Below, one piece after another: positions 244-55,857 of a stretch of 64,000 nucleotides of DNA. The stretch covers positions 1,736,001 to 1,800,000 of the forward strand of contig NZ_CP007264.1 of assembly GCF_000585495.1 (NCBI RefSeq). Reading direction: 5' to 3'. The position numbers and the translations under genes were made by a program. Each line of letters begins with the position of its first letter. The first letter of the stretch is position 1. The notes beneath the pieces are model-generated. The model did not search any database, had not been told where the DNA came from, and saw only the letters and a program-made list of their open reading frames with translations. This DNA is from Thermococcus nautili (GTDB lineage: Archaea > Methanobacteriota_B > Thermococci > Thermococcales > Thermococcaceae).

Positions 244-563
244 TGGACCACCTCAGGTGGGGATAATGTCATCATCTTGGCATCAGGAGGGATGACACTC
301 CTCATCGGTTCGCAACCTAAATCTTCCCTCTCAAGCCTCCTTTCGGCCAAAGGAGTATTTTCAGCGGAGCGGGCGTCATCGGTTAAAGAGGCCCTGTCAT
401 CCAACCCCGTGAGAGTTGTGAAGGAAAATAGTGTTAATTAAGCTTTTGTTTTTGAATGGGTAAGGTTCCCACCTCATGACAACTGGATGGGGGAATCCTC
501 GTGAAAATCTCGTAATCCGATGGTGCTTTAAACTCTTATTCAACATCCCGTGGGGGAGAAAAC
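244..563. other. Intergenic region with no convincing gene
   Basis: About 320 bp lie between two divergently read genes. The only signal I can support is a TATA-like TTTAAA stretch near 526, followed by a GGGGGAG ribosome binding site at 552-558 that serves the DUF3800 gene. A plus-strand ORF can be read across 169-441 but it starts inside the upstream minus-strand gene, has no ribosome binding site and an unlikely composition. No tRNA, repeat array or box C/D structure was seen. Confidence 0.5.
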
Positions 564-18371: not shown

Positions 18372-18449
18372 GGGCCGGTAGCTCAGCCTGGTTAGAGCGC
18401 GGGGCTTTTAACCCCGTGGCCGCGGGTTCGAATCCCGCCCGGCCCGCCA
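18372..18449 (+). tRNA. tRNA-Lys (anticodon TTT), CCA encoded
   Basis: The full cloverleaf can be drawn: acceptor GGGCCGG/CCGGCCC with discriminator G and encoded CCA, D-arm with TAGCTCAG, anticodon stem GCGGGG-loop-CCCCGT with loop CTTTTAA (anticodon TTT), and T-arm GCGGGTTCGAATCCCGC. A TATA box (CTTATAAGG) at about 18338-18346 precedes it. Confidence 0.97.
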
Positions 18450-18451
18450 TC

Positions 18452-18476
18452 GAAACTTTTGCCAAGCAAAAGTTTC
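18452..18476 (+). terminator. Perfect hairpin immediately after tRNA-Lys
   Basis: GAAACTTTTGC-CAA-GCAAAAGTTTC, 11-bp perfect arms with a 3-nt loop, begins 3 nt after the encoded CCA. It may be a terminator or a processing/stability element of the tRNA trailer. Similar though weaker hairpins follow tRNA-Asp (55687-55711) and tRNA-Pro. Confidence 0.55.
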
Positions 18477-18512
18477 ATCAAAGTTTGTGATTCTCTCTTT
18501 GAGTTGCTGTTC

Positions 18513-18547
18513 TTTGAGTGGATTTCTTTTTGAGTTTGCTTCTTTGG
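18513..18547 (+). repeat. tRNA-trailer motif, copy 1 (after tRNA-Lys)
   Basis: Contains TTTGAGTGGATT (18513-18524), identical to 55744-55755, and TTGCTTCTTTGG (18536-18547), the one-base-longer form of the TTGCTCTTTGG motif found exactly at 55766-55776, 18924-18934 (minus) and 18790-18800 (minus). The motif starts 87 nt after the CCA of tRNA-Lys. Confidence 0.7.
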
Positions 18548-18580
18548 AGAGTGAATTCATTTGAGTGCGCCTTTGTAGAT

Positions 18581-18630
18581 GGGTTCAAGCCTTTTTTGCG
18601 CTCCTTTGGAGCGCGGTTCAAGCAGAACCC
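18581..18630 (+). other. Nested hairpin of the tRNA-Lys trailer
   Basis: The inner stem GCGCTCC-TTT-GGAGCGC (18598-18614) is perfect. It is enclosed by GGGTTC (18581-18586) pairing with GAACCC (18625-18630). No protein is encoded here. The same pair of elements, GC-rich hairpin plus GAACCC/GGGTTC pairing, recurs after tRNA-Asp. Confidence 0.55.
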
Positions 18631-18725
18631 GGGTGAAAATGCCTTAGTCCAGTGGATTCAATATCTCAAATACCCGTCGATTTTAAAATCCCCTGCAAAG
18701 AAACCTTAAAGAGGAATCACGAACC

Positions 18726-18773
18726 TTGGTCAAACTTCGCGTAGGCGAACAAGCTTTAAGAAAGCTTGACCAA
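18726..18773. other. Three-way-junction-like inverted repeats
   Basis: An outer stem TTGGTCAA (18726-18733)/TTGACCAA (18766-18773) encloses two hairpins, TTCGC-GTAG-GCGAA (18736-18749) and CAAGCTTT-AAG-AAAGCTTG (18750-18768). The outer and second inner stems share three bases, so they compete. Either strand could fold. No ORF or known RNA family was recognised. Confidence 0.5.
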
Positions 18774-18789
18774 ACAAGTGCCCTTCTCC

Positions 18790-18800
18790 CCAAAGAGCAA
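18790..18800 (-). repeat. tRNA-trailer motif, extra copy
   Basis: Exact TTGCTCTTTGG on the minus strand, 124 nt downstream of the tRNA-Pro copy. On that strand it is followed within about 20 nt by the junction-like fold at 18726-18773. Confidence 0.55.
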
Positions 18801-18886
18801 GAAGTCACTCGTGCACTCTCGAATTGGGAAATTCAACACGAGTTTAGCATTAAAGGAGCCCCTTGAACTAGTTTCAACTCATTTTT

Positions 18887-18903
18887 GGCGTCCTTCGGAC
18901 GCC
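18887..18903 (-). other. GC-rich hairpin of the tRNA-Pro trailer
   Basis: GGCGTCC-GAA-GGACGCC on the minus strand is a perfect 7-bp stem with a 3-nt loop. It lies 20 nt after the TTGCTCTTTGG copy at 18924-18934. Confidence 0.55.
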
Positions 18904-18923
18904 TTCTCAGAGTGAAACACTCA

Positions 18924-18950
18924 CCAAAGAGCAAATCAAAAGAAACTCCC
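18924..18950 (-). repeat. tRNA-trailer motif, copy 2 (after tRNA-Pro)
   Basis: On the minus strand the sequence GAGTTTCTTTTGATTTGC runs into an exact TTGCTCTTTGG at 18934-18924. The motif begins 84 nt after the encoded CCA of tRNA-Pro, the same distance as in the other two tRNA trailers (81 and 87 nt). Confidence 0.7.
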
Positions 18951-19017
18951 CCACAATTGTTGAATTTCAAAAAGGCACATCAACTTCCGCCAGCGCTTTC
19001 GTCAGAAAGGGCTGCAA

Positions 19018-19095
<78 letters not shown>

Positions 19096-55607: not shown

Positions 55608-55685
55608 GCCCGGGTGGTGTAGCCCGGCCCATCATACGGGACTGTCACTCCCGTGACCCGGGTTCAAATCCCGGCCCGGGCGCCA
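55608..55685 (+). tRNA. tRNA-Asp (anticodon GTC), CCA encoded
   Basis: Acceptor GCCCGGG/CCCGGGC, discriminator G and encoded CCA; anticodon stem-loop ACGGGA-CTGTCAC-TCCCGT gives anticodon GTC; T-arm CCGGGTTCAAATCCCGG. It lies 7 nt after the 5S gene and shares its transcript. Confidence 0.97.
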
Positions 55686-55743
55686 AAGAACCTTTTCCCG
55701 GAAACGTTTCACCCAAGTGAGCATGCTTTTTTGAAGGACAGTT

Positions 55744-55776
55744 TTTGAGTGGATTCCTCTGTGAGTTGCTCTTTGG
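55744..55776 (+). repeat. tRNA-trailer motif, copy 3 (after tRNA-Asp)
   Basis: TTTGAGTGGATT at 55744-55755 equals 18513-18524, and TTGCTCTTTGG at 55766-55776 equals the two minus-strand copies at 18924-18934 and 18790-18800. The motif begins 81 nt after the CCA. The spacing between the two words (22 nt start to start) is nearly the same as after tRNA-Lys (23 nt). Confidence 0.7.
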
Positions 55777-55792
55777 TGGGGGATTCCTCTAA

Positions 55793-55840
55793 GAACCCCC
55801 TCCAAAAGGGTTCGAGTCTTTCACGCCCCTCCAGAGCGTG
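55793..55840 (+). other. Hairpins of the tRNA-Asp trailer
   Basis: GAACCC (55793-55798) pairs with GGGTTC (55808-55813), and CACGC (55822-55826) pairs with GCGTG (55836-55840). The words correspond to the GGGTTC/GAACCC and GCGCTCC/GGAGCGC stems after tRNA-Lys. The convergent RNA ligase gene ends 18 nt further on. Confidence 0.5.
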
Positions 55841-55857
55841 GGAAAATGGGAAAAAGC

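Follow-up and report, generated by a model that had tools for sequence, protein, structure and literature searches.

The window, the stretch of 64,000 nucleotides of Thermococcus nautili DNA that was analysed, holds three tRNA genes, each of which is followed by palindromic, hairpin-rich, non-coding DNA. The features concerned, in window coordinates, are these:

18372-18449, plus strand: tRNA-Lys(ttt), dock of the first array (ARAGORN; Rfam RF00005)
18452-18476, plus strand: left boundary hairpin GAAACTTTTGCCAAGCAAAAGTTTC with an 11-bp perfect stem, found in 13 identical copies and several compensated variants at related loci
18481-18729, plus strand: full-length type A1 cassette, an imperfect palindrome with ends GTTTGTGATTC ... 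GAATCACGAAC (nhmmer E 7.1e-70)
18536-18547, plus strand: one-T-longer variant of TTGCTCTTTGG in the A1 left arm (sequence)
18598-18614, plus strand: A1 central hairpin GCGCTCC-TTT-GGAGCGC, with loop alleles among the copies
18750-18768, no strand assigned: boundary hairpin CAAGCTTTAAGAAAGCTTG separating the Lys and Pro cassettes (sequence, fold)
18780-18996, minus strand: full-length type C cassette of tRNA-Pro (nhmmer E 3.7e-61)
18790-18800, minus strand: TTGCTCTTTGG near the far (right) end of type C (exact match)
18887-18903, minus strand: type C central hairpin GGCGTCC-GAA-GGACGCC in minus-strand reading (plus-strand loop TTC)
18924-18934, minus strand: TTGCTCTTTGG in the type C left arm (exact match)
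18991-19014, minus strand: type C left boundary hairpin CAGCCCTTTCTGACGAAAGCGCTG, beginning 3 nt past the tRNA-Pro CCA
19018-19095, minus strand: tRNA-Pro(cgg), dock of the second array (ARAGORN)
55608-55685, plus strand: tRNA-Asp(gtc), dock of the third array (ARAGORN)
55724-55842, plus strand: truncated type A1, model positions 11-136 of 252 (nhmmer E 2.3e-14)
55766-55776, plus strand: left-arm TTGCTCTTTGG of the A1 remnant at Asp (exact match)

A C/D sRNA, sR55, is encoded elsewhere in the window (251-309, minus strand; Rfam RF01307, 69.9 bits).

The preliminary description, made from the letters alone, had centred on the word TTGCTCTTTGG. Its exact copies at 55766-55776 (+), 18924-18934 (-) and 18790-18800 (-), and the form with one extra T at 18536 (+), are reproduced, and the spacing given for the word, 81, 84 and 87 nt past the CCA of the Asp, Pro and Lys genes, agrees with the tRNA coordinates. 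The hairpins said to come first after CCA and again further on are all present, that of Asp being imperfect. The word itself is genuinely conserved but is not the unit. When the DNA 3' of every tRNA in the genome is printed out, TTGCTCTTTGG proves to be a small part of far longer repeats of 220-255 bp. It has seven exact occurrences in the genome (1.976 Mb, one contig), and all seven lie inside elements of a single repeat family that together make up about 9.5 kb of it, which places the word beyond chance. Three trailers had been described as sharing one layout. Those of Lys and Asp are of type A1 (truncated at Asp) but that of Pro is of type C, and the occurrence at 18790-18800 belongs to the distal end of that Pro element rather than to a further trailer. 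Since the two types dock at about 32 and about 22 nt respectively, the near-equal spacing of 81, 84 and 87 nt joins two different elements; what stands of the claim is a hairpin-rich, non-random layout at a constant distance from the tRNA. The earlier observation is real, yet it is one visible piece of a larger repeat family.

Five types of cassette, weakly related to one another, can be told apart: A1, A2, B, C and D. All are imperfect palindromes of 220-255 bp with small perfect hairpins at their borders. Aligned stretches measure 241-254 bp for A, 247-256 bp for B and about 216-227 bp for C, with D as a further type; one type B copy is internally deleted and is 193 bp long. The inverted ends are GTTYGTGATTC/GAATCACRAAC in type A, GTNNGTAGCTCCT/AGGAGCTACTAAC in type B and GCTGGCGGAA/TTCGCCAGC in type C. 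Each element contains nested inverted repeats and a GC-rich central hairpin, and is flanked by small, perfect boundary hairpins of 10-11 bp, such as CAAACTTCGCCTGCGCGAAGTTTG. The longest open frames are close to those of shuffled sequences in A1, A2 and C and somewhat longer in B and D; the cassettes are non-coding. A composite recurs in which a D cassette runs, from a junction near CTTGCTC, into a C cassette that lacks its first third (G000:C1:847364-847778; the His(gtg) and Leu(gag) arrays of genome G022; locus L089). Cassettes are in places separated or flanked by another, distinct GC-rich repeat (CTGTACTCTCAAACCCCCGGAGTGGGGCTTCGCCCCAC...), which has 97.7% identity over 86 bp between G000:C1:1617208-1617293 and 1900223-1900308, and also occurs between cassettes at L032, L041, L049, L082, L084 and L175.

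The arrays are docked behind stable RNA genes. Among all loci collected, a sample gathered partly around tRNAs, 105 of 135 arrays start directly after a tRNA. Loci in other genomes found by A1 similarity alone give the less biased figure: a tRNA lies within 1.5 kb at 22 of 29, and about 7% of the genome would qualify by this measure. In the genome of the window itself, all significant A1 or B matches fall within these arrays. In 93 copies with a full start, A and B elements mostly lie 29-36 nt past CCA and C elements mostly 19-23 nt past it. Orientation is nearly absolute; of the elements within 60 nt of a tRNA in three congeneric genomes, 53 lie on the 3' side in the same orientation, one is opposite and none is on the 5' side. 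Many tRNAs of this genome and its relatives carry elements, those with introns included, but roughly half of the transcript-terminal tRNAs have none (occupancy 22/41, 19/40 and 11/39 in three congeners).

Docks are also found at the H/ACA sRNA Pab160 and the C/D sRNA sR47. In two genomes an array begins right after the stop codon of a cbf5-like gene, as read by eye. The gene, which ends in ...PRDWYPKLW and is probably cbf5, is followed by its array from the stop codon at L053:954 (G000, about 1899953) and L205:1013 (G022, about 724512), one species having a type B array there and the other a type C array. Where arrays end beside a promoter, an RNA gene is in several cases missing on that side. 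At G000:C1:311486-312360 (L037), no recognised RNA gene adjoins either end of an array composed of B (+), C (-) and A2 (+); an unannotated sRNA is possible beside it, at about 312380-312460 (-).

A further kind of dock is a tRNA 3' fragment (L087, L166, L167), probably left over from integrated elements. At L087 (G000:C1:1017029-1017140), an apparent tRNA-His 3' fragment bears an A2 cassette about 25 kb from the intact tRNA-His (G000:C1:1042397-1042473), which has no cassette; it looks as if an integrated element displaced the array. Such fragments, and the fact that tRNA 3' ends are the usual integration sites, would suit a reading of the arrays as attachment scars or remnants of tRNA-using integrated viruses or plasmids. 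The arrays have no coding content, however, and 52 of them show no second tRNA 3' end at the far side, which disfavours attachment-site-type integration. Nor do plasmid or phage records contain a match (one element type against each), and the fragments fit ordinary integrations that displace a pre-existing array. We regard a scar origin as very improbable.

The content of a given dock turns over. Comparison of genomes G000, G022 and G018 often finds corresponding tRNAs with different cassette types or none. At tRNA-Val(cac), 2.3 kb of downstream sequence is 92% identical between G000 and G018, yet one of the two carries A1 and the other B; left hairpin and core have been replaced, whereas the right hairpin is identical. 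Similar exchanges are seen at Val(gac), where the flanks are 95.7% identical, and at Ile(gat), Arg(cct) and Val(tac). The exchange is not uniform, since G000 and G022 have the same truncated A1 at the Asp locus, within flanks of 95% identity. For 95 elements the nearest relative lies elsewhere in the same genome in 49 cases, at another gene of another genome in 43 and at the orthologous tRNA in 3. Recent copying is evident in two pairs: the C cassettes behind Leu(caa) and Leu(gag), which in G022 agree at 100% of 219 bp, and the A1+C arrays of Arg(ccg) and Lys(ttt) in G018 (99.5% identical over 428 bp). Mosaics of half-elements also occur, in which some tracts comprise the tRNA itself and one arm, and others one arm alone; two tRNA-Gly genes of G000 share a tract of the former kind (231 bp, 97.8%). 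The data show copying of cassettes between unlinked tRNA loci and, at individual tRNAs, replacement of one cassette by another within flanks that have not moved. Swaps between species and an occupancy of about one half make the cassettes look like mobile, recombining DNA and not like a signal needed by every tRNA. The comparisons yielded neither a clean pair of occupied and empty sites nor an insertion into a naive site, and we infer movement from copies and swaps. Breakpoints are enriched about twofold at hairpins, a figure confounded by the conservation of the hairpin sequence, and their clustering was dropped as proof of hairpin-driven exchange.

These properties invite comparison with miniature transposons. 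Prokaryotic MITEs (PMC10969869) are likewise short, non-coding, multicopy and intergenic, have inverted-repeat ends and include mosaic and truncated copies. At about 250 bp, with terminal inverted repeats, the cassettes could be classical MITEs, that is non-autonomous elements moved in trans by a host DDE-type or other transposase with a preference for positions 3' of tRNA and sRNA genes; identical copies recently made at unlinked places, and docks at non-tRNA RNA genes, speak for this. For inverted-repeat transposons, though, a near-absolute orientation and a constant distance to an RNA 3' end would be unusual, and exchange of half-elements is not transposition. The 52 arrays that lack a far-side tRNA 3' end, and plasmid and phage records that yield no relative with one element type against each, count against it too. 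The perfect boundary hairpins, the arrays of several types and the lack of a known mobilising transposase further set the cassettes apart from MITEs, and the text of the cited review does not mention Thermococc-, Pyrococcus or tRNA. On balance, we hold classical transposition to be unlikely.

The preliminary description had taken the shared layout as a sign of selection on an RNA, which might be a terminator, a processing signal or a stable small RNA. Position favours such a functional trailer, or an insulator, as the elements sit immediately past mature RNA ends in the orientation of transcription; their first 100 nt are T-rich (0.36 versus 0.29) and the predicted folds are strong, with median z of about -3 to -5. 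Single elements fold better than shuffles whichever strand is taken (median z -2 to -5.6, up to 14 copies per type), but the two strands do so about equally well. The sense strand does fold better in A1, B and C; same-composition shuffles show an equal difference, and the energy gap was rejected as an RNA signal because base composition explains it. In broad alignments RNAalifold yields a weak, indel-ridden consensus with pair frequencies barely above independence. The most telling result comes from an alignment-free arm-swap test, in which pairing between the two arms of one copy is no stronger than pairing of its left arm with right arms taken from other copies. There is thus no sign of a long hairpin kept by compensation, and palindrome arms that do not coevolve leave RNA selection unsupported. 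Compensated stems, proposed earlier as a check, do exist in the small boundary hairpins, whose several variants are nearly all perfect, but not in the arms of the main helix. The loops of boundary and central hairpins occur in both orientations (TTC/GAA, TTT/AAA, GGA/TCC); loop inversion, if that is the right reading, would be a DNA process. T-tracts, looked at as a terminator signal, are weakly and not clearly enriched relative to tRNAs without elements. No cassette matches Rfam above the curated score.

Distribution among genomes bears on the same question. A1 matches occur in 74 of 94 genomes of the family and B matches in 57 of 61 genomes of the genus, and none for A1 in the nine genomes of sister genus g3. 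The tRNA 3' flanks are bare in G005, one of these nine, and in G034, a congener without matches; a stem of at least 7 bp is present in 1 of 32 and 1 of 33 flanks respectively, both behind tRNA-Ala(tgc) in the rRNA operon spacer. In three genomes of genus g4, type C lies exactly 22 nt past Val(tac), Arg(ccg) and Val(gac). The tRNA-Pro locus of Thermococcus metagenome genomes bears other arrays or none. A trailer selected as RNA would have to be dispensable behind about half of the tRNAs, and behind all those examined in G034 and G005, and to vary freely in type at orthologous genes. Taken with the transfer of copies, the absent arm coevolution and the T-tract result, this leaves the proposed RNA function without support, and we consider it improbable. 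The fixed orientation beside a transcription unit could also point to a function; any effect on the host as terminator, insulator or spacer would be secondary.

We propose that the trailers are probably palindromic DNA cassettes, non-coding and bounded by hairpins, which dock just past stable-RNA 3' ends and are copied there by recombination or gene conversion. Copying would proceed mainly among cassettes with the same hairpins, boundary and central, and in many cases with tRNA 3' sequence in common as well. Breaks at extruded DNA hairpins may trigger the exchange and a tRNA-targeting integrase may assist; the symmetry of the palindrome would then be a DNA-level inverted repeat rather than a selected RNA fold. 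Some published data bear on this proposal: (i) inversion endpoints in Thermococcus lie in oppositely oriented pairs of tRNA genes (Cossu et al. 2017, PMC5495485); (ii) recombination by a pTN3 integrase takes place at tRNA and also, though with low specificity, at repeats of other kinds (PMC5495485); (iii) according to the S9 legend of that paper, one crossover falls within two tRNA-Gly genes together with the strictly conserved stretch that directly follows them (PMC5495485). These data fit the arrays as recombination substrates and are not proof that the pTN3 integrase moves cassettes; the text of the paper does not mention palindrom- or intergenic. The docks at Pab160, sR47 and cbf5 are unexplained by tRNA homology and need either recognition of RNA gene ends or rare accidents.

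A bolder reading is a site-specific system so far unrecognised in Thermococcaceae, in which a dedicated or co-opted putative recombinase would read the boundary hairpins and insert, stack and exchange gene-less units in one orientation, integron-like, at about twenty stable-RNA 3' ends per genome. We consider such a system doubtful. Integron gene cassettes are modular, form oriented arrays with hairpin-forming site borders and are exchanged at a fixed dock. The present cassettes are gene-less and have dozens of docks per genome, which makes the likeness an analogy only, and we know of no integron integrase in the archaea that bear them. REP/BIME and IS200/IS605-derived palindromic elements are likewise extragenic, with hairpins at both ends and oriented arrays. 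The cassettes differ from both in their 220-255 bp with a long internal palindrome. The Y1 transposase (PF01797) is absent from four array-bearing genomes (G000, G022, G032, G043), which disfavours IS200/IS605-type movement there; G018 has one copy.

The closest known elements are MITEs and palindromic repeats, from which the family is set apart by its orientation, the distance at which it docks, its boundary hairpins and the modular make-up of its arrays. As the preliminary description had supposed, it has no named counterpart, either in Rfam or in the open-licence literature searched; subscription papers could hold an earlier description. A recombinase reading the boundary hairpins, if one exists, would be a new DNA tool from a hyperthermophile. 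The arrays also carry a caution, in that hairpin-rich tRNA trailers with a common motif need not be RNA elements. For the organisms themselves, they would account for long unannotated gaps behind tRNAs. Chromosome rearrangement in Thermococcus is known to concentrate at tRNA genes, and related, sometimes near-identical palindromes behind about half of the tRNAs would offer substrates for recombination at these places.
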